DNA of 64,000 bases, from contig NZ_CP094929.1 of NCBI RefSeq assembly GCF_022869165.1, positions 2,976,001 to 3,040,000 on the forward strand, given 5' to 3'. Shown here one piece after another: positions 11,424 to 24,991 of the stretch (the first letter of the stretch is position 1; every line of letters starts with the position of its first letter). Below the pieces are notes generated by a model. It did no database searches. It worked only from the letters and a program-made list of their open reading frames with translations, and was not told the origin of the DNA. This stretch comes from Sphaerochaeta associata. GTDB lineage: Bacteria; Spirochaetota; Spirochaetia; Sphaerochaetales; Sphaerochaetaceae. The position numbers were made by a program, and so were the translations under genes.

Positions 11424-12356
11424 ATGCAACAGGTAATCATCCTCCATAATCACATCCCCCAGAACGCCCCAGAGGACGTACTGGACATTCTCCGTCAAGC
11501 CCAATGGATTGAAGAAATCCTTAGACAAAAAGGATATTCGGTGACACTGCTCCCCTACTCTCTCTCTGCTCTCGAGCAGCTGGATAAGAACGTCGTTGTC
11601 TTCAATCTCGTAGACTCGGCACCCGGGGAGGAGATGCTCTCCTACCTGGTCCCGGGAATACTTGAAAGCCTTAAGCTGAAGTATACCGGTTGTTCCCTGG
11701 CAAATCTCTTCTTGACAACCAACAAGGTACTTGCCAAGAAGCTGATGGCCGAGCATCATCTGCCGACTCCCGCCCCATACAGCAAGGAGAGCGAAAAAGG
11801 GCTGTACCTCATCAAACCCACCGCCCAGGACGCTTCAGTAGGCCTTGACGAACACTGCCTTGTCGAACACGCAGAGGTTCAGACGAGGCTGAAAGAGAAG
11901 GAAGCCCAAATAGGCTGCCCCTGCTTTGCCGAACAGTACATCGACGGCAGGGAGTTCACCGTCTGCATGTACGGCACGAGGAAGGATGTGCACATCCTCC
12001 CCCCCTATGAGTGGGTGTTCAATGAGTATGGGAATCGGGCCAAAATCATCACCTACGATGCCAAATGGACCGAGCAGACGTTCGGGTATGAGCACATCAG
12101 TGCAAAATACACCCACGACGAGGCTGACAAACCCCTCATCGTGCAGTTGGAACATCTTGCAAAGGATTGCTGGAAGGCCTTCGACCTCAACGGTTATGCA
12201 CGGGTGGACTTTCGCATCGATGCAAGCCATCGGCCGTTTATTCTAGAGCTGAATGCAAATCCGAGCTTCTACGGTTTCTACCATCTGGCCCAGGAGTGGA
12301 ACTTCAGCTTTGAGGATCTGATTGTATCATTGGTTAACCAAGCCGCTATTTTATAA
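11424..12356 (+). CDS. ATP-grasp ligase, D-alanine-D-alanine ligase-like (copy A)
   Basis: A 310-residue ATP-grasp protein with the Ddl-type layout: an N-terminal Rossmann-like region (VVVFNLVDSAPGEEML), central ATP-binding segment (YLIKPTAQDASVG; CFAEQYIDGREFTV) and metal-binding C-terminal motif GYARVDFRIDASHRPFILELNANPSF. Such enzymes join a carboxylate to an amine with ATP. True D-Ala-D-Ala ligases differ in the N-terminal half, and three divergent copies lie together here, so a cell-wall role is unlikely. It is convergent with the GNAT gene at 12351-12809, overlapping by six bases. A TTGACA hexamer at 11384-11389 could be its -35 box, but the -10 is weak. A peptide or beta-lysine conjugate product is inferred from the neighbours. 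Confidence 0.8.
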   Translation: MQQVIILHNHIPQNAPEDVLDILRQAQWIEEILRQKGYSVTLLPYSLSALEQLDKNVVVFNLVDSAPGEEMLSYLVPGILESLKLKYTGCSLANLFLTTNKVLAKKLMAEHHLPTPAPYSKESEKGLYLIKPTAQDASVGLDEHCLVEHAEVQTRLKEKEAQIGCPCFAEQYIDGREFTVCMYGTRKDVHILPPYEWVFNEYGNRAKIITYDAKWTEQTFGYEHISAKYTHDEADKPLIVQLEHLAKDCWKAFDLNGYARVDFRIDASHRPFILELNANPSFYGFYHLAQEWNFSFEDLIVSLVNQAAIL

Positions 12357-12809
12357 ATACTTGTCCACCCAGACCAAGCTCTCAAGCTCAAACCCTTCAG
12401 CTTTATAGAGGCTCTGCGCCCGCTCATTCCTTGGATGGGTCACCATCGCAAGGTAGGTGCAGCCGCTTTCCTTCGCCCAACGTTGGACTTCCGCCAACAG
12501 ATGCGTCCCCAAGCCGTGGGCTCTAGCCTCTTCTGCAACATAGAGCTCATTGAGCCACAGGTAGTCACCCCCGCTTTCCAGCCCGCAGCAGACATTGCCG
12601 AAGGCTATACCGACCGCCTTATCCTGCAAATAGGCCACCCAAAGGACTGCACGGCTTTCCGGTTTCATTGCATTTGAGAGGACGGCCTCAATGTCATGCT
12701 GATCCGGCTCATATCCGATGAACGTCAGTTGATGTCTCACAAGGATGCGTACACCTTCGATATCACTGATATCAGAGGTGTGTTGGAAGCTCCGAATTTC
12801 AATGTCCAT
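12351..12809 (-). CDS. GNAT-family N-acetyltransferase (first copy)
   Basis: A 152-residue single-domain GNAT protein. The acetyl-CoA pyrophosphate loop region reads LYVAEEARAHGLGTHLLAEV, followed by the NERAQSLYKAEGF helix common to amino- and peptide-acetyltransferases. It is the last gene of a five-gene minus-strand operon (kamA, two ATP-grasp ligases, two GNATs), three bases after the other GNAT, and its tail overlaps the convergent ATP-grasp copy A. It could N-acetylate a beta-lysine-containing product, or resemble AblB functionally. It is much shorter than AblB (about 270 residues), so it is not an AblB orthologue by length. Confidence 0.8.
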   Translation of the reverse strand: MDIEIRSFQHTSDISDIEGVRILVRHQLTFIGYEPDQHDIEAVLSNAMKPESRAVLWVAYLQDKAVGIAFGNVCCGLESGGDYLWLNELYVAEEARAHGLGTHLLAEVQRWAKESGCTYLAMVTHPRNERAQSLYKAEGFELESLVWVDKYL

Positions 12810-12812
12810 GCC

Positions 12813-13289
12813 TTACCACCCTTTGACGTACAGCAGCTTGTCATCGCCGGGAGCGTAATAATCTTTCAGCTGCCCTTCCAACATATATCCATGACGGGTG
12901 TAGAAGCTTCGGGTGGGGACATAAAGAGGCTGTGAGGAGGTCTCGATGTAGATGCGCCTGCCTCCCCTGCGCTCGATCTCCACCTCGGTCTGCCTGAGCA
13001 ACTGTGCTCCGATACCCTGCCGTTGGTACGCAGGGTCGACTGCTATCCAGTACAGGTCGTAACTGAATTTGGTACCAGGAATGGGCCCGAAGCAGGTATA
13101 CCCGAGCACCTGCTCCCCTTCTTGGGCGAACTGGAAAAAGTAGAGGCTCGCCTCTCCTTGCTCGAGTCGTTCGCGTACCAGCGATACGCCGACCTCCTGC
13201 TCCTCTTCATTGAAGAAGCCTGAGTTTTTCAAGATGGAGGCTACAGCCTCCATGTCCTTCTCTATGGGTTGTTCACGAAACTGCATCAT
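12813..13289 (-). CDS. GNAT-family N-acetyltransferase (second copy)
   Basis: A 158-residue GNAT domain with the core motif LYWIAVDPAYQRQGIGAQLL for acetyl-CoA binding and the conserved terminal strand YYAPGDDKLLYVKGW. Its start overlaps the stop of ATP-grasp copy B by four bases (ATGA), and the next GNAT follows three bases later, so the genes are translationally coupled. It is related only in fold to the adjacent GNAT, so two distinct acyl-transfer steps, or one resistance and one biosynthetic step, are possible. The substrate is not recognisable from sequence. Confidence 0.8.
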   Translation of the reverse strand: MMQFREQPIEKDMEAVASILKNSGFFNEEEQEVGVSLVRERLEQGEASLYFFQFAQEGEQVLGYTCFGPIPGTKFSYDLYWIAVDPAYQRQGIGAQLLRQTEVEIERRGGRRIYIETSSQPLYVPTRSFYTRHGYMLEGQLKDYYAPGDDKLLYVKGW

Positions 13290-14230
13290 CGACTCCTGAG
13301 CAACTGCTCGATGACCTCACAATAGGTCATGCCTGCTTGCGAAGCGGCAGCGATGAAGCCGCTGTCGGCAGTTATGCACGGATTGCTGTTCATCTCCAGG
13401 ATGAACGGCCTATTCTGCTCGTCAACTCTGAAATCGACGCGGGCATACCCACTGTTCCCAAACAGTGTATATACCGCTTGGGCAAGCCGTTTCAGCTCTT
13501 CGATCAAACCCTGCTCCTGTGCAGGGAAGATGTAGGAGCGCTGGGTATGCTGGTAGGCAAATGATTGCGGCAGCCACTTCGCCTCATACCCTACAATCTT
13601 CACCTTTTCTTTCGGGTAGTCGACAAAACGCATCTCACAGACCGGCAACACCCTGCCTCCCGGCAGGATGGAGAGATTGAACTCCCTGCCGTCGATATAC
13701 CGTTCTGCAAAATGATCGGGATGGTCAATCAAGTACGAAGCAAGCTCACCAGCTTCAGCAAACGTCCTCACCGAAGCATCGCTGATACCCACCGACGCTT
13801 CTTGGGCGATGGGCTTGATCATCAACGGGACGCCAAGGAAGCTTGAGCCGCCATGGCCTTCCTCCAGCCACGGGGGAGTGGGAAGACCTGCCAAGTCCAG
13901 TTGTTTCTTGGCAACCACCTTGTCCCCTGTCACCGAAAGCGTATAGGCACCACCCCCGCTGCAGGGAATGGAGAGGGACTGGCACAACAGGGGAACCAGA
14001 TGTAAAAGACGGCTTGAGCTGAGATTCTCCACCAGATTGAACACAAGATCGCACCCCGATTTCTCAATGCGGCGGGCAGTGAGAATCAGGTTCAAGGAGA
14101 AGGCCGCCACTTCGACGGTATGACCAAGGCGGATCAGAGCTTTCCTGACCGCCTTTACTTGGGCGATGGTGTCCGCCTCATCCTCTCGCATGCCGCTTCT
14201 TCGAACATCGGTGAGAATCAGAACCTTCAT
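13286..14230 (-). CDS. ATP-grasp ligase, D-alanine-D-alanine ligase-like (copy B)
   Basis: A 314-residue ATP-grasp enzyme beginning MKVLILTDVRRSGMREDEAD. Diagnostic parts are CDLVFNLVENLSSS in the N-terminal region, MIKPIAQEASVGIS in the ATP-binding lid, HFAERYIDGREFNL, and the metal-ligand motif SGYARVDFRVDEQNRPFILEMNSNP. It shares the EASVG and YIDGREF signatures with copy A and is clearly its closer paralogue. Its ATG overlaps the stop of ATP-grasp copy C by four bases and its stop overlaps the GNAT start, placing it in the middle of the kamA operon. It probably makes an amide bond between amino acids or a beta-amino acid and a carboxylate. Confidence 0.82.
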   Translation of the reverse strand: MKVLILTDVRRSGMREDEADTIAQVKAVRKALIRLGHTVEVAAFSLNLILTARRIEKSGCDLVFNLVENLSSSRLLHLVPLLCQSLSIPCSGGGAYTLSVTGDKVVAKKQLDLAGLPTPPWLEEGHGGSSFLGVPLMIKPIAQEASVGISDASVRTFAEAGELASYLIDHPDHFAERYIDGREFNLSILPGGRVLPVCEMRFVDYPKEKVKIVGYEAKWLPQSFAYQHTQRSYIFPAQEQGLIEELKRLAQAVYTLFGNSGYARVDFRVDEQNRPFILEMNSNPCITADSGFIAAASQAGMTYCEVIEQLLRSR

Positions 14231-15204
14231 AGGCCAAGCCTCTTTTGGGCCGAATGCACAATCCTTGCGATCAGCTCATCGTAGGAGAGCCCATGCATCC
14301 TGCTCAGAATCGGAAGGTCGGAATCGATGGGATGAAGACCGGCAAGGGGATTCACTTCCAAGAAGTGCACCACCCCTTTCTCGTCCATCTTCACATCGAC
14401 TCTCCCTCCGTCCCGACACCCGAGCGCTTGCCAGGCCGCCAAGGCGACTGCCTCGCAGGCTTTCCATGCAGCTGCTTCAGGCTTCTCATAACGGGTCGTG
14501 GTCACATACTCCTGTTTGGTCTTGTAGGAGTAGATGCCTCCGTCGCTCTGGTGATCGATGATGATTTCCATCACGCCGGTACTCACCGCATCATCACCGG
14601 TTCCGGTGATGCCGACGGTGAACTCCCTGCCGCTCAGGTACGTCTCAACCAAGACCGGCTGCTCATAGGCAGCCAGCATGGCTTGGGAAACGCTCTTAAG
14701 CTGCCCCGGATTTGTGACTTTACTGGAAGCGGTGATCCCGATGCCGGTTCCACCGGCAACCGGCTTGAGAAAGAGCGGATAGGGAAGATCGACTTTCTTG
14801 TAGTCCTCTGGATGAGAGAGCGTACAAAAGTCAGCGGTTGCCACCCCGGCCTTTCTCACCACATCCTTGGTGAAACCTTTATGCAGGCAGATTGCCAGCA
14901 CAAACCCTTCACTGAAAACATAGGGGATCTGATAGGCGTCCAGGAGGGCCGGAATCTGGGACTCACGCAACAGGCCGAACAACCCTTCTGCGATGTTGAA
15001 CACCAGATCCCAACGCCTGCCCTCGGCAAGCCTTGCCACCAAGGCCTTCACGTTGCCGATTCGCACCGTCTGATGCCCGAGTTTCTGCAAGGCGGCATCG
15101 ATGGCATCGATAGTGACAAGGCTGTCGCACTCGGCAACCGACTCCGGCTCATAGCCTTCCTTCAGGTAGTCGTCCTTCAGGTCATAGGTCATTCCGATCA
15201 GCAC
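14227..15204 (-). CDS. ATP-grasp ligase, D-alanine-D-alanine ligase-like (copy C)
   Basis: A 325-residue ATP-grasp enzyme. The N-terminal domain has GMTYDLKDDYLKEGYEPES and RRWDLVFNIAEGLFG, the lid has LFLKPVAGGTGIGI, followed by VETYLSGREFTVGITG, and the metal site is GGRVDVKMDEKGVVHFLEVNPLAG. Start is GTG at 15204 (overlapping the kamA stop by seven bases) or ATG at 15192; both are in frame. It is the most divergent of the three ligases here and directly follows lysine 2,3-aminomutase, which makes it the best candidate for the enzyme that uses beta-lysine. This is a positional inference only. Confidence 0.82.
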   Translation of the reverse strand: MLIGMTYDLKDDYLKEGYEPESVAECDSLVTIDAIDAALQKLGHQTVRIGNVKALVARLAEGRRWDLVFNIAEGLFGLLRESQIPALLDAYQIPYVFSEGFVLAICLHKGFTKDVVRKAGVATADFCTLSHPEDYKKVDLPYPLFLKPVAGGTGIGITASSKVTNPGQLKSVSQAMLAAYEQPVLVETYLSGREFTVGITGTGDDAVSTGVMEIIIDHQSDGGIYSYKTKQEYVTTTRYEKPEAAAWKACEAVALAAWQALGCRDGGRVDVKMDEKGVVHFLEVNPLAGLHPIDSDLPILSRMHGLSYDELIARIVHSAQKRLGL

Positions 15205-16463
15205 GTTGCAGTCTCCCTTGCAGTGGGATAGGAGAACACCTTTCCCTCATAGTTTCTGAGGTACAGGTGCTCGTCATCCTGTCCTACTTCATACTGAGGG
15301 AGAATGGGGACCTTCCCGCCACCTCCGGGTGTATCGATGACGTACTGGGGAATGGCATACCCGCTGGTAAAGCCCCTCAGCCCCTGCATCAACGCCTTAC
15401 CCTTGTCCACAGTCGTCCTGAAGTGCTCGGAGCCCGAAATCGGATCACACTGGAAGAGGTAGTAGGGTTTCACCCTGGCTCGCAGCAGCTTGTGAAACAA
15501 GTCGGTCAGAATCGGTACCGAATCATTGACACCTTTGAGCAGAACTGTCTGACTGCCCAAAACAACACCTGCGTCAGATAATGCATTGCAGGCTCTTGCG
15601 GCTTCTGCTGTCATTTCATCGGGATGGGTTGCATGGATGCTCATGTAAATGGGTTTGTATTTTCGCAGAACGGCAAGCAGGCCTTCATTGATTCTCTGCG
15701 GCATGACCATCGGCACCTTCGTACCGATGCGTACCATCTCCACATGTTCGATGCCGGTTACCTCAGAGAGCAGGTAATCGAGCATTTCATCGGAAAGGGT
15801 AAGAGGATCGCCGCCGCTGATGACCACGTCACGCACCTCAGAGTGTTCTCTGATGTACTCCAACGCTTTTCCCCAATGGTTCTGCAGAGCCTCGGTGTGA
15901 CCTCCGACCATCCGCGATCGGGTACAGTACCTGCAATAGGTGCTGCAAAAGCTGGTGGTCAAAAAGAGCACCCGGTCGGGATAGCGATGCACCAACCCCT
16001 GTACGGCGGTGGTGTGCTCCTCGGCCAGAGGATCTGAGCTCTCGCCTTTTCCCACATACGACTCCTCGATGGAGGGTATGACGGTCCTGCGAATGGCGTT
16101 ATTCACATCATTCGGATCGATGAGGCTGAGATAGTAGGGGGTTACCGAGAAGGGAAACAAGGTATCCGCACTCGCCAAGGCTTCACGTTCGCTTTGTGTG
16201 GGAGTGAGGAACCGACAGAGGTCGGTGTAGGTGGTGATTCGATGAAAAAGCTGCCAGTGCCAGTCATTCCACATCGCATCGGTCGCGTCCGGGAAGTAGT
16301 GCTTCCTGAACTCTTCGATCCTGCCTTCCAGAGGAAATCTCGACTCATGAAGGCTGCCGTTCTGGTGATGGGGTTTCGGTGCAACCGAGGCTGCACCGCT
16401 CCGTATAAGCGGAGGCTCGACATCATCAATAATAACACGCTCGTTAGTATTGAACTGTCCCAT
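15198..16463 (-). CDS. kamA: lysine 2,3-aminomutase, radical SAM / PLP enzyme
   Basis: A 421-residue KamA-family enzyme that converts L-lysine to L-beta-lysine using S-adenosylmethionine, a [4Fe-4S] cluster and PLP. The radical SAM triad is Cys173-Cys177-Cys180 (FCSTYCRYC). The PLP lysine is Lys384 in DTPGGGGKVPI. The two aspartates that hold the lysine substrate in the Clostridium enzyme are conserved as Asp340 (FQCDPISG) and Asp377 (YVIDTPG), favouring lysine over glutamate as substrate. Start ATG 16463 follows AAGGA by eight bases; the frame opens eight codons earlier without a ribosome site. It leads an operon with ATP-grasp copies C and B and two GNATs. In methanogens and some bacteria beta-lysine is made into the osmolyte N-epsilon-acetyl-beta-lysine; here the partners differ. 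Confidence 0.92.
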   Translation of the reverse strand: MGQFNTNERVIIDDVEPPLIRSGAASVAPKPHHQNGSLHESRFPLEGRIEEFRKHYFPDATDAMWNDWHWQLFHRITTYTDLCRFLTPTQSEREALASADTLFPFSVTPYYLSLIDPNDVNNAIRRTVIPSIEESYVGKGESSDPLAEEHTTAVQGLVHRYPDRVLFLTTSFCSTYCRYCTRSRMVGGHTEALQNHWGKALEYIREHSEVRDVVISGGDPLTLSDEMLDYLLSEVTGIEHVEMVRIGTKVPMVMPQRINEGLLAVLRKYKPIYMSIHATHPDEMTAEAARACNALSDAGVVLGSQTVLLKGVNDSVPILTDLFHKLLRARVKPYYLFQCDPISGSEHFRTTVDKGKALMQGLRGFTSGYAIPQYVIDTPGGGGKVPILPQYEVGQDDEHLYLRNYEGKVFSYPTARETATC

Positions 16464-16752
16464 AAAAATCGTCCTTGACGACCACACTCACGGTCCTTTC
16501 GACTCTCCGTGTTCGTCAGCATCAGTGTATCACCAAGGCAAAAAAAGGTCGCTATATTTTGCGTATTTTTCTGCATGATTTTACAGGTATTTTATGCACG
16601 ACGGCTCGACCGAAAAGGGATCATATCAAACGAGAGAGAACCACAAAAATCTGCTCGGATTTGCCTGCCTTCACAAGCAAGGTGAACATGTCGATTTCTG
16701 TTTCCTTCCTTCATCCTCTCTGCTACCATCTACCCATTACAGAGGAAGCAGC
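16464..16752. other. divergent intergenic region, kamA / tocopherol-cyclase-like gene
   Basis: This 289-base gap must contain the promoters of the minus-strand kamA operon and the plus-strand cyclase-like gene. I see no unambiguous -35/-10 pair, no strong palindrome and no riboswitch-like conservation that I can support by eye. Confidence 0.5.
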
Positions 16753-17736: not shown

Positions 17737-18813
17737 ATGACAGACATCACACACATTATCCAAACCTTTCAAGAGAACTATATGGTCTCCTTTTTCATGC
17801 TCATGGGAACGCTGTTGGTACTGCTTGCGGCGAATGCAATCCTGGGCAAGCGCATCAAGAAGCTTGAGAGCATGAAAATGCAGGACGAAAGGAGCGTAAA
17901 GGCCCCTGCTCTGCCCATGCTGCGCTTTATCAAGCGCATCGCCATCCCCCTGCTCTTCCTCGCTTCCCTCTCCGTCTTTCTGAATAGTGTTTCGTTCGCA
18001 GAGGGCATACAGAGAGTGGTTCAGATTATCTTTGCCGTAATCATGACCATCATCATCGTTCGGTCGGTCAACAAAGCCCTTGAACTGAGTTTCTCCAAGT
18101 ATTTTGAGAAGGAGTATGCAAACCGCGAGCATGAGAAGAACCTCAAGCCGCTGCTCTCCTTTGTCAAGCTCCTATTATGGGTGATAGGTTTTCTCATCCT
18201 TATCAGCAACCTGGGCTTCAACATCACCACAGCCCTTGCAGGACTGGGAGTCGGCGGTATCGCGGTAGCCATCGCCGCCCAGGGCATCCTGGGAGATTTG
18301 TTCAGCTACTTTGTGATTTTCTTCGACCATCCCTTCGCCCTCGGTGACTTCATCGTCTTCGGTGACAAGTCGGGTATAGTCGAACGGATCGGCATCAAGA
18401 GCAGCCGCATCAGGGTCCTCAGCGGAGAGGTTCTCATTATCTCCAACTCCGATCTGACCTCAAGCAGGATTCACAACTACAAGCAGATGCAACGAAGACG
18501 TGTGATCTCCTCCATATCAGTTCCATTTCACACACCTGAGGAGAAGCTGAAAAGGATTCCTCAGCTCATCAAGGACATACTGGCATCAATTCAGGTTGTT
18601 GAAGGGGTTGTCTGCGACAGGTCGCACTTCCAAAGCATCGGCTCTTCGGCTTTCATCTTTGAGACCGTATATTATATACCTGCCCCAGAATACGTTGCCT
18701 TCATGAACGTACAACAGGAATTCAACCTCAGATTGGTAAAAACCTTCCGAGAGGAGGGCATTGAATTTGCTTACCCGACGCAACGAATCCTTTCGCCAGA
18801 TCAGATGACCTGA
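17737..18813 (+). CDS. MscS-family mechanosensitive ion channel
   Basis: A 358-residue inner-membrane channel with four or so hydrophobic segments in the first 200 residues. The pore-lining helix ALAGLGVGGIAVAIAAQGIL is rich in Gly/Ala as in MscS TM3, followed by the beta-domain signature FALGDFIVFGDKSGIVERIGIKSSRI and ISNSDLTSSRIHNY. Such channels release solutes on hypo-osmotic shock. It follows the cyclase-like gene by 12 bases, and its 3' end overlaps the convergent histidine-kinase gene by 13 bases. Proximity to kamA (beta-lysine derivatives are osmolytes elsewhere) may point to a shared osmoadaptation theme, which is inference. Confidence 0.9.
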   Translation: MTDITHIIQTFQENYMVSFFMLMGTLLVLLAANAILGKRIKKLESMKMQDERSVKAPALPMLRFIKRIAIPLLFLASLSVFLNSVSFAEGIQRVVQIIFAVIMTIIIVRSVNKALELSFSKYFEKEYANREHEKNLKPLLSFVKLLLWVIGFLILISNLGFNITTALAGLGVGGIAVAIAAQGILGDLFSYFVIFFDHPFALGDFIVFGDKSGIVERIGIKSSRIRVLSGEVLIISNSDLTSSRIHNYKQMQRRRVISSISVPFHTPEEKLKRIPQLIKDILASIQVVEGVVCDRSHFQSIGSSAFIFETVYYIPAPEYVAFMNVQQEFNLRLVKTFREEGIEFAYPTQRILSPDQMT

Positions 18814-21800
18814 ACCTCGCCCTCCTCTTCCTTATCCACACTCAGGATGCGGTCCATCTCATCATGGACTGCCTGGGTGTAGGGACCGAAGTCGAAGAGG
18901 GTTCTAAGCCGTGAGAAGAGCGGCCGTACAAAATGCCTGAGCTGGCTTCTGTCCTTCTCAAGGGTGGATTTGCTTTGCAACACCATCACCGTAACTGCAG
19001 AAGGAGAGTTGTAGGAGCCTACCTCCACAAAGCCGAACTTCTTGTACAACTTGATCGTCTTCTCATCATCGGCAAACACATCGATGATCAACTCCTCCAC
19101 CCCTGTCGCCCGGGCGAGCAAGAATACTAAAATGATCAAGCCGATGGAAGCGGAGGTGTTGCGCATCTCCGGAAGTACGGCAAGGCGAATGATCTCAGCC
19201 GCTTTGCGTGTCTTGAGAACCGACTGGATATCGAAGTACTTGGAGATGGGAAGCGGCCAGAAGTGTTCGCTGGTCATCAGCGAGACGGTTCCTACCGGAT
19301 GCAGACCCCGGAAGGCAAGGATGTGCATCGCCTTCTCATCCACCTTGCGGTGAATCGACTCCTCAAGATAGCCCTTCTCGCCCACCAGCACCTTGCGTTG
19401 GATGAAGAATACGTCGTTCATGCCGTTTTGGTCGGTCACCAGCTGGAAACGTATGTTCTCCTTGTTCTCCTCATTGAGGGCGAAGATGGTGGTGAACTCA
19501 GAACCCACCTGCTCTTCACTCTTGACCCTGATGCGTCCCCCCATTTTTTCTACGATGTTGTAGCAGTTGGAGAGCCCGAGACCTGTGCCGCTGCCAGGGG
19601 CCTTGGTGGTGAAGAACGGGGTGAATATCTGGCTCATATGCTTTTCGGATATACCGCAGCCGGTATCGCCGACCTTCACCTGGACAAATCCATCCTTTTC
19701 CACGCAACTGAGGGTCAACTTGCCGTTGCCGTCCATCGCCTGGATGGCGTTGACGATGAGGTTGAGGAAGAGTTGCTGCAATTCGCCCTCATTGGCTTCA
19801 ATGGAAGGAAGCGCATGGTAGTTGCGCTCAACACGAATATTCTGTGAATCGACGCCGCGCAGTGCCAGACGAAGGGAGAACTCCAACACCCTGACCAGTT
19901 CCACCTGCTGGGTCTGCTTCACCTCTTCCTTACGGCTGTAGATGGAAAGTTCCTTGATGACATCGCTTGCCGTCTTGGAGTAGGTCAGGATATCCTGGAC
20001 ATACTCATGGTGCGGACTTTGCTCTTCCATCTCGCTGAGCATGATCTCGGCAGTCCCGACGATACCTGCAAGCGGATTGTTCAGCTCATGGGCGATGCCG
20101 GCGGCCAGTGTTCCGATACCAGCCATCTTCTCGGTCCGCACCAGCTCCTCCTGCATGTGTTTCTGCTCGGTGATGTCGTTGATGATCTCGATGAAAACGC
20201 TCTTGCTCTTGTCAGGGGAGCGGACCGAATGGAACTGAAATGAGAAGACTTGGTCGGCCACATCGGCCTCTGTCTCCTGCAATACCCCGGTGTGCAGGCA
20301 TTCAAGACCCTGACAGAACGGACAGGGACGGCTGCGGTGGAAGAATGCACGGTAGCACTTGCCGCCGATGAGCGTCTGGCGGTCCTGTCCGAAGAAGTTA
20401 ACCGCAGCCGTATTTGCCTCTTGGATGGTATAATCGATATCGATCAGGCAAACCGGGGAGGCAATCCCGTTGAAAATGGCTTCCAGCTTGTTCTTGCTCA
20501 TGGTCAGTTCATCACCTTGGATGCGCAGCTGCTCAAATGAAAGTGCATTCTCCAAGGAGAGACTGCTCTGGGCGGCAAGGATTTCCAACGCCTCACGCTC
20601 GATTTCACTGATCAAGGCCTTGGCATGGTCGTAGCCGATGAGGATGTAGCCGGCGATCTGCTTGCGGAAAACCAAGGGGATGAGCACATCAGCCGGGGGA
20701 AGGGAGTTGCTGACCTCCATGCGCTGCTCGTCGGGATTCACACTGATGACCGAACTTTGGTTCTCCTTCTTATACAACTCGAGTTTCTGCTGTACCTCAT
20801 CGGAGAATGAGAAGGAGACTTCCTGGCCGATTTTGCAGGGGGTTGGACAGTTGTTGTGGGCCACCAGGAAAAACTTCTGACTCTCGTCATTCCGTTTCGC
20901 CACAAAGACTACCCACTCGGTTTTCAGCCCCGAACTCAAGCTCTTGACCACCTCGTTGCCAAGGTCGTGGAGGTTGACGATGGTAGTAAGCCGTTTGCTC
21001 AGGTTCTTGATCGTCGTCTGATAGGGATGGCGCTTGGGAATAATGACGACATCGACAATATAGGAGAGCAGGTTGCGCAGTGGATGAATGATCAGAACCG
21101 TAGCAACTCCGAGGATGAACGAGAGCTGGAAGATGTTGCCCGGGTCGAAGTTGGAGTTGTTCATCTGGATGAAGGAGAAGATCAGTAAATACACCACCGA
21201 GGCAGCTGCCGCGAGTATGGTGGAGTAGATGATGGAGAGCCCCAGACGCGAGTAGTTGATCAGCTTGTACTTGTAGATGGTGTAGAACAGGAGAACGGCG
21301 TTGATGGTGGCGGCAAAAATATCGATGGGATAGCGACCGAGCTCGGGAAAGACGTTCATGAAAATGCCGATGAGCATGATGGCCACACCGATCAGGGGAA
21401 GGGCGAGATTCTTGTGAAACCCTTGGCTGGAGCGTCGTTTCGCCCCGAAGAGCAGCATAAGCAAGGTGAAAATCAGATAGACGTAGCTTAACGAGTATGC
21501 AGAGAGAGCTCCAGGAGCGAGCTTATAGTAGAATAAATTATCCGCAGTAAAACCTACATCGCTGACGATATTTCCGGAGAAATTGAGGTACATCAGGGGG
21601 ATGATCAGCAGGTAACTGAGCTTGATGATGACAAAAATCGTCCGTTTTTGTATTTCCAGGATGTCGACAACAAAGCTGCACAGGGCGTAGGGAACCGAAA
21701 GAAGGCCGATGAGCATGATACGGTTCCAGAACAGGGGCGTATACAACGGGCTGTTGAGGTGCATCATCATCGAGCCGAAGCTCCAGATGGAGACAAAAAT

Positions 21801-21923
21801 CATGTAGAGCTGGAAGGACCAATAGAAACGATCTTTCTTGTATTGGAGAAATCCGAATATGACAAATGACACATATAAGATAAACGCTACCGCAGGGATG
21901 ATGGTCGAGACATCAATAATCAT
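18801..21923 (-). CDS. hybrid sensor: 7TM-type membrane histidine kinase with GAF, PAS and C-terminal GNAT domain
   Basis: A 1040-residue protein. Residues 1-290 contain about eight or nine transmembrane helices resembling the histidine-kinase N-terminal 7TM region. A GAF-like domain spans about 310-465, a PAS domain about 475-585 with a CPFC cysteine pair (534-537), then HisKA with His612 in [14 protein letters not shown], and a HATPase with the N box ([10 protein letters not shown], 721-730), GDTGCGIS (752-759) and GTGLGLS. Unusually, about 825-985 is a GNAT-like domain ([36 protein letters not shown]). There is no receiver domain. The divergent HD-GYP response regulator at 22516-23541 is the obvious partner candidate. 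The 3' end overlaps mscS tail-to-tail. Confidence 0.87.
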
Positions 21924-23541: not shown

Positions 23542-23702
23542 TGGGCTGTAAACACCAGTACTTGAATATTTGCTTCGAGCGAAAACGGTGAGTAGCAAGG
23601 CCAAGAAGGAGAAGATATCTACGATATCTGATCCGACGAGAACGCTGCTACCCGGCGTTTGGGCCGAAGAAAATTAAAGAAATATGATTTACAGCCCACT
23701 AG
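23538..23702. repeat. 165-bp element bounded by a perfect 15-bp inverted repeat
   Basis: CTAGTGGGCTGTAAA (23538-23552) is exactly repeated in inverse orientation as TTTACAGCCCACTAG (23688-23702). Inside, further complementary pairs follow the same nesting: AATATTT/AAATAT near the ends and GTAGCA/TGCTAC further in, plus a near-direct repeat of GATATCT (GATATCTACGATATCT). No open frame of note is contained. The left arm includes the stop codon of the HD-GYP gene. It could be a MITE-like palindromic repeat, a structured RNA, or a terminator-like structure without a T-run. The integron attC core sequences were looked for and not found. Confidence 0.6.
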
Positions 23703-23746
23703 ACCTATGTGCCAAATCGAGCGAGACTGAGACAAGGAGGCTTTTT

Positions 23747-24991
23747 ATGGCGGATCCTTGGTATGTCTCTCTGTTCAAGAATTATGCCGAGCACTACGAC
23801 AACGAATCCTTCACCCAAGGTACGCTTGGTGAGTGCGACTTCATCGAACAGGAATTGGGCTATGACAAGAGCCTTAGTATTCTCGATGTAGGCTGTGGAA
23901 CCGGCAGGCACACCATCGAGTTGACCAAGCGCGGCTATAGGGTGACAGGAATCGATTTAAGCGAGGCGCAGCTCAGACGCGCCAGAGAAAAGGCGGCCAA
24001 GGAGATGCTGGACATCACCTTCCTCCAAGCCGATGCCCGCCGTTTACCCTTTGAAAGTCGATTCGATGCCGCCATCATGCTCTGCGAAGGCGGCTTCTGC
24101 CTGATGGAGACCGACGAGGAGAATGAGGCAATACTTGTCAGCATTGCAAGAGCACTGAAGGATGACGCCCTTCTTCTCTTCACCGCCCTCAACGGACTGT
24201 TCCCGCTCACCCACTCCCTGACCGAGTTCTACGGCAACGTCGATGATGCAGGCTCGGCATGCCAAGAGAACCACTTCGATGCAATCAGCATGCGCGACAG
24301 TAATACAACCATCTTCACCGATGACGATATGATCGAGCACAGCGTCAGCAGCACCGAACGTTTCTACATTCCCAGTGAGATTCAGGCGATGCTTCAAAAG
24401 CTTGGGTTTTCGACCATAGAATTCTTTGGTGCAACACTGGGTTCTTTCAGCAGGGATAAGCCGTTGACCAGCGATGATTTTGAATTGCTGGCTGTTGCAA
24501 AAAGAAAGCTTGCTTCCAATACCCTGCTCAGTCTCTACACCAAAAGCCTTCAGTCGGGCATGCATCAGAGGGCTTATCGTATGGTTCTCTCCTTCCTAAT
24601 CACTTTGCAGTCAGCATTGCAAGAGGATTTTCCCCAAGCAAAGGTCACGTCTCTCTATCAGGGGTATCAGGATATGAGTTATATAGCCCTCGTTCCCAAA
24701 GCATTTGAACCTCTTGGACTGAAGCTTGCCGTCGTTTACCTGCACAGGGAGAACTCTTTCGAGTTCTGGTTGGCTGCCAGGAACCGCAGCCTGCAGGATG
24801 TTTGGAGGGAGAAGCTCAGAACCAAGGTGCATGAGCCTTATACCTTGGTTGAGAAGGGCAAGGGCATCGATGCCATTGTCAGCACCACGTTCGATGGTGA
24901 AATTTCCTTCGACAACCAAAGCAGGCTGATCGCCCGATTATGTGATACAATACAGGCGATGCTTTCGGATCTGGACGAACTACTGCAGTAG
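23747..24991 (+). CDS. class I SAM-dependent methyltransferase fused to a C-terminal DUF7000-like domain
   Basis: A 414-residue protein. Residues about 40-150 are a class I methyltransferase with motif I ILDVGCGTGRHTIEL, the acidic adenosine-binding position (GIDLSEAQL), and LQADARRLPFESRFDAAIM. After residue 270 there is a separate domain containing YQGYQDMSYIALVPK and LKLAVVYLHRENSFEFWLAARN, resembling stand-alone DUF7000 proteins. The ATG at 23747 follows AAGGAGG; the frame opens 21 codons earlier inside the palindromic element. It lies nine bases before the PARG-like gene and probably starts a four-gene run. The substrate is unknown. Confidence 0.75.
   Translation: MADPWYVSLFKNYAEHYDNESFTQGTLGECDFIEQELGYDKSLSILDVGCGTGRHTIELTKRGYRVTGIDLSEAQLRRAREKAAKEMLDITFLQADARRLPFESRFDAAIMLCEGGFCLMETDEENEAILVSIARALKDDALLLFTALNGLFPLTHSLTEFYGNVDDAGSACQENHFDAISMRDSNTTIFTDDDMIEHSVSSTERFYIPSEIQAMLQKLGFSTIEFFGATLGSFSRDKPLTSDDFELLAVAKRKLASNTLLSLYTKSLQSGMHQRAYRMVLSFLITLQSALQEDFPQAKVTSLYQGYQDMSYIALVPKAFEPLGLKLAVVYLHRENSFEFWLAARNRSLQDVWREKLRTKVHEPYTLVEKGKGIDAIVSTTFDGEISFDNQSRLIARLCDTIQAMLSDLDELLQ

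Follow-up and report, generated by a model that had tools for sequence, protein, structure and literature searches.

What does a lysine 2,3-aminomutase gene do in an operon that otherwise encodes D-alanine ligase-like enzymes and acetyltransferases? The question is raised by a locus of Sphaerochaeta associata that lies in a stretch of 64,000 nucleotides (the window; positions 2,976,001-3,040,000 of a genome of 3.55 Mb in one contig). We propose that beta-lysine made by the aminomutase, KamA, probably feeds ATP-grasp ligases in an amide-forming pathway that also involves acetylation by a GNAT-type N-acetyltransferase, and that the overall product would be a small amide or oligopeptide that contains beta-lysine and is acetylated. 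The same route had been suggested in a first reading made from the sequence alone. Its core is strengthened here by the conserved gene linkage, by the residues kept in KamA and in the ATP-grasp sites, by the loss of the substrate pocket of D-Ala-D-Ala ligases (Ddl) and by a separate ddl gene; the product itself is still a prediction.

Gene organisation and conservation

The operon occupies the minus strand in the order kamA (15198-16487; translation could also start at the ATG at 16463, and the GTG start gives the longer numbering), ligase C (AGC, 14227-15204), ligase B (AGB, 13286-14230), GNAT1 (12813-13289) and GNAT2 (12351-12809), with overlaps of 7, 4 and 4 bases followed by a 3-base gap. 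A third ATP-grasp gene, ligase A (AGA, 11424-12356), is found on the plus strand, convergent with the operon and overlapping GNAT2 tail-to-tail by 6 bases; its product is a paralogue of ligase B with 33.5% identity. Pfam and NCBIfam recognise one radical-SAM (S-adenosylmethionine) protein of the lysine-aminomutase type, three Dala_Dala_lig_C ATP-grasp proteins and two GNATs. Coordinates, overlaps and families thus all agree with the five-gene operon and convergent ligase gene described in the sequence-only reading.

When one-genome-per-species contigs were scanned with ligase C, 524 relatives came up; the best 80 loci were read, counting only contigs that reach far enough to be informative. 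Just ahead of ligase C stands kamA in 75 of 78 such loci, with ligase B downstream in 64/79 and GNAT1 in 56/70. By record names, the 80 loci span about a dozen phyla and candidate phyla, including Spirochaetota, Thermodesulfobacteriota, Myxococcota, Bacteroidota, Planctomycetota, Alphaproteobacteria and Sumerlaeota, as well as Fibrobacteres, WOR-3, KSB1, Neomarinimicrobiota, CSSED10-310 and Kiritimatiellae, where single taxon names may be wrong because most records are metagenome bins. The association is also seen in whole genomes. Among 198 genomes drawn evenly from the phylum of the window, ligase C is present in 22, each of them with a KamA that scores 300 bits or more (hypergeometric p ~6e-19, a value that overstates independence since the drawn genomes are related), and all 19 genomes with GNAT1 likewise have KamA. 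Of the two, the recurrence in many phyla carries more weight. Since the arrangement recurs across phyla and the genes also co-occur in whole genomes, it is not due to chance, and the linkage is real and old. Co-occurrence of kamA with ATP-grasp and GNAT genes in other genomes, on which the sequence-only reading had staked its proposal, is therefore conserved.

The gene set is not uniform in its outer parts. Fifteen genomes lack ligase B near ligase C; a match is located elsewhere in seven of these (strong in six) and absent from eight, which include a single-chromosome metagenome-assembled genome of WOR-3 and rumen bacteria. Conversely, four loci (L132, L133, L135 and L138) have a separate B-type gene beside or near GNAT1. 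KamA with ligase C occurring without B, and B occurring beside GNAT1, indicate that KamA and ligase C form the minimal unit, to which B and GNAT1 are an add-on. GNAT2 (found in L024, L025, L026 and L028) and ligase A are confined to Sphaerochaeta-type loci and are a local expansion. The idea of the whole gene set as one unit consequently stands for KamA, ligase C, ligase B and GNAT1, and not for ligase A and GNAT2. No match to ligase C was obtained in the plasmid collection searched.

As a separate observation, a butyrate kinase gene follows the KamA-ligase C pair in five loci of rumen bacteria (L076, L079, L080, L081 and L085), and in L080 a phosphate butyryltransferase gene is placed between the two.

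KamA

The predicted activity of KamA can be judged from comparison with the lysine 2,3-aminomutase 2A5H, to which it matches with E=8e-121. Asp340 and Asp377 in ATG numbering (348 and 385 in GTG numbering) align with D293 and D330 of 2A5H, C181, C185 and C188 with C125, C129 and C132 of the CxxxCxxC SAM/4Fe4S motif, R190 with R134, and K392 with K337. The roles of these residues in 2A5H are established, namely the SAM cysteines, the lysine that holds pyridoxal phosphate (PLP), the carboxylate-binding arginine and the two aspartates that bind the side-chain amine of lysine. All of them are invariant in 67 of 67 operon KamAs. The retention of both aspartates, the PLP lysine and the SAM cysteines, claimed beforehand for this one protein, is thus a property of the whole group, and it can be strongly inferred from these sequences that KamA turns L-lysine into beta-lysine.

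KamA does not belong to AblA, the aminomutase of N-epsilon-acetyl-beta-lysine synthesis, since it scores 436.9 bits against TIGR03820, below the AblA cut-off of 525.4. In a maximum-likelihood tree all 28 operon KamAs form one clade (support 95/96), separate from the AblA of sister species, the fermentative lysine aminomutases and an EpmB-like KamA paralogue. The latter is encoded in the same genome and is a form present in most members of the genus. In many operon KamAs (L024-L103) the catalytic domain is preceded by a short EEPP-type motif at the N-terminus.

The ATP-grasp ligases

The three ligases carry the name of Ddl in family and structure matches, and the first point to settle is whether they are ordinary D-Ala-D-Ala ligases beside an unrelated kamA. 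Comparison was made with E. coli DdlB. The ATP/Mg residues (K97, K144, E180, E187, K215, D257, E270 and N272 in DdlB numbering) are the same in all 94 C, 52 B and 12 A-labelled sequences. The D-Ala pocket (S150, Y216, S281 and L282) sets these proteins apart from Ddl proper, with replacements that are family-specific and fixed. In ligase C, S150 is replaced by T, the Y216 position is free and L282 has become an invariant Asp (Asp296), with R255, G276 and S281 kept, so that its own pocket contains an invariant S295-D296; the residue corresponding to DdlB Glu15 is uncertain because an invariant Ala24-Glu25 can be aligned in two ways. In ligase B the changes are S150 to A (mostly), Y216 to W, G276 to C and L282 to G. 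Ligase C would on this basis grip the carboxylate of an amino acid and add an acidic contact that fits a basic substrate such as beta-lysine. In true ligase A proteins the acceptor-pocket motif NPC..PD is altered to NPSFYGF, which suggests a different acceptor.

The scores of the three ligases (95.8-152.8) are far under the Ddl cut-off of 243 for NF002378 and below all curated cut-offs. The AlphaFold models of C and B are confident Ddl folds (mean predicted local distance difference test, pLDDT, 91.9 and 91.5) with template modelling scores (TM-scores) of ~0.78 to Ddl structures, and a fold search of the PDB with both models returned Ddl/Van ligases alone at the top, giving no closer clue to the substrate. 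The genome also encodes a canonical Ddl at another site, where its gene immediately follows a Mur-ligase-like gene; this protein scores above one of the curated Ddl cut-offs (283 vs 262). The Ddl name given by the NCBIfam and PDB matches speaks for ordinary D-Ala-D-Ala ligases; with the S150/Y216-type pocket residues lost, scores so far under the cut-offs and a proper Ddl present, we find that explanation hardly credible. The two findings that the sequence-only reading had named as refuting it, such ordinary ligases and a lack of conserved linkage, are both absent.

Acetyltransferases

Both GNAT1 and GNAT2 contain a PF00583 domain. GNAT1 represents a defined subfamily that accompanies this operon type; its nearest solved relative is 2r7h (E=1e-37), and the name of that entry, "putative D-alanine N-acetyltransferase", looks like a structural-genomics label rather than one based on an assay. 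Neither protein has a listed match to AblB (TIGR03827, cut-off 205.1 bits), which places both outside that family, and an AblB search of the genome itself found nothing over the cut-off, only a single 20-bit match elsewhere.

At nine loci of several phyla (L053, L059, L067, L068, L069, L086, L088, L092 and L097), a gene in or beside the KamA operon encodes a protein of about 590 residues that starts with a GNAT domain and ends in a deacetylase domain most similar to acetylpolyamine amidohydrolases. Its presence there indicates that acetyl-amine chemistry recurs at these operons, and the fusion suggests that a lysine-like amine is N-acetylated here and can be deacetylated again. This inserted gene had been considered as an asparagine-synthase-like amidotransferase, as in the synthesis of N-acetylglutaminylglutamine amide (NAGGN), which proved wrong.

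Proposed pathway and related systems

The first step would be the conversion of L-lysine to beta-lysine by KamA. Ligase C would then use ATP to form an acyl-phosphate and from it an amide bond, joining beta-lysine to a second amino acid or amine; the ligase chemistry follows from family membership, and beta-lysine is the presumed substrate because of the near-constant pairing of KamA and C. Ligase B would add a further unit and GNAT1 may acetylate an amino group, and in this lineage ligase A and GNAT2 could decorate the product further.

Pathways of similar logic are known. PylB, PylC and PylD make pyrrolysine, by a route in which the product of a radical-SAM lysine mutase goes to an ATP-grasp amide ligase. 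The resemblance is one of pathway logic, and no homology is claimed; the match of KamA is to lysine 2,3-aminomutase and that of the ligases to Ddl, not PylC, and no PylD-like gene was seen here. Synthesis of the osmolyte NAGGN, an acetylated dipeptide solute, employs a GNAT/ATP-grasp fusion and an amidotransferase; ATP-grasp and GNAT enzymes are shared with the present locus, whereas no amidotransferase is seen here and the likely precursor is beta-lysine. With Ddl and Van ligases the fold and the ATP/Mg residues are common, but the substrate-pocket residues are replaced. The closest known pathway is the AblA/AblB route to N-epsilon-acetyl-beta-lysine of methanogens and some bacteria (e.g. PMC3543383). 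It likewise combines a lysine 2,3-aminomutase and an acetyltransferase in one operon and is present in sister species of the genus, but it works without ligases, its AblB is a GNAT family of 266 positions that is absent here, and the KamA of our operon falls in another clade and under the AblA cut-off. None of the papers found in a literature search describes the present genes together, apart from a possible passing mention in a lichen Nostoc genome paper (PMC5987646).

Alternative explanations

If GNAT1 were an analogue of AblB, the locus could simply make N-epsilon-acetyl-beta-lysine, with the ligases acting elsewhere or using the compound in a side reaction. This would account for KamA and an acetyltransferase sharing an operon and for sister species having ablAB instead. 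However, GNAT1 is not AblB and no other candidate reaches the cut-off, KamA is the most constant neighbour of ligase C, and the two occur without B or GNAT1 in the operon, so that we consider this simple route improbable. An exported beta-lysyl peptide with a role as antibiotic, metallophore or signal can be imagined from a MATE-family transporter gene near five Sphaerochaeta-type loci and from a membrane protein like those of the major facilitator superfamily (MFS) after KamA and C in L093, but such transporters are not conserved with the operon, and a compact four-gene unit found in a dozen phyla looks more like the source of a core metabolite; there is little chance that the product is a secondary metabolite of this kind.

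The product may also be attached to a larger molecule. EpmB and EpmA can place beta-lysine on a protein, elongation factor P (EF-P), and by analogy one ligase could modify a protein, with a GNAT trimming or capping the residue. Against this, the genome has its separate EpmB-like paralogue, the operon has no recurrent gene for a small carrier protein, and the nearest matches of the ligases are small-molecule dipeptide ligases, making protein modification very unlikely. Transfer of beta-lysine, or of a peptide derived from it, to peptidoglycan precursors would agree with the Ddl fold of the ligases. The Nostoc paper describes a second 'type 3' D-Ala-D-Ala ligase operon, proposes a peptidoglycan role for it and includes lysine 2,3-aminomutase among its abbreviations (PMC5987646); that operon may be the same as ours, although the identity is not established. 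But the neighbourhood of the operon in related loci shows no recurrent mur, pbp or transpeptidase family, and the GNATs and the deacetylase fusion better suit a free amine. We therefore hold a cell-wall function to be unlikely, and return to the acetylated beta-lysine amide as the preferred product.

Biological role

The likeliest role of such an amide, offered tentatively, would be that of a cytoplasmic solute or stress metabolite substituting for N-epsilon-acetyl-beta-lysine. Among 26 genomes of the genus, ligase C is present in 14 and ablB in 11, with both in 3 (Fisher p 0.045); in the 16 genomes that are at least 90% complete, seven have the operon only, seven have ablB only, two have both and none has neither. 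This near-exclusive presence of operon or ablAB lends slight support to the osmotic role that had been suggested.

Several points weigh against it, or against the pathway as drawn. The ablB-only species are one clade in a marker tree, so the either-or pattern reflects a handful of evolutionary events, and the three ablB genomes in the phylum sample are too few for a test of mutual exclusion. When the window and 33 related loci were scanned with Rfam, no lysine, cyclic di-AMP (c-di-AMP) or other riboswitch came up near kamA, and related loci have no stress regulator or dedicated transporter in common beside the operon. The substrates of GNAT and ATP-grasp enzymes are not readable from sequence, which makes substrates and product here predicted ones, and the product may also be attached to protein or cell wall. 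A solute role is thus possible, with the balance tilted against it.

The nearby MscS channel gene, taken earlier as a hint of osmotic function, was rejected as evidence, since it adjoins the operon in close relatives only. Beside it lies a gene for a tocopherol-cyclase-like protein (PF14249; 16759-18813, plus strand), and the pair is divergent to kamA, again in close relatives only. Further along, the window encodes a seven-transmembrane (7TM)/PAS histidine kinase that is unusually fused, at its C-terminus, to a FeeM/GNAT-type N-acyl amino acid synthase domain (18801-21923, minus strand), and a methyltransferase-DUF7000 fusion (23684-24991, plus strand).

Implications

The same gene set in a dozen phyla probably means that the product is a common small molecule. 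It is tempting to speculate, while regarding it as doubtful in this full form, that the operon represents an undescribed and ancient pathway, present in at least a dozen phyla whose bacteria are mostly uncultured, and that its product, an acetylated beta-lysyl peptide or amide, takes the place of N-epsilon-acetyl-beta-lysine as a general solute inside the cell. If the proposed pathway is true, a conserved unit of four genes, whose present annotations are D-alanine ligase and generic acetyltransferase, would be a dedicated route to a beta-lysine compound in many phyla. Many database annotations would be corrected, a short list of genes could be expressed directly to find the product, and a beta-amino-acid peptide would be added to the known microbial metabolites.

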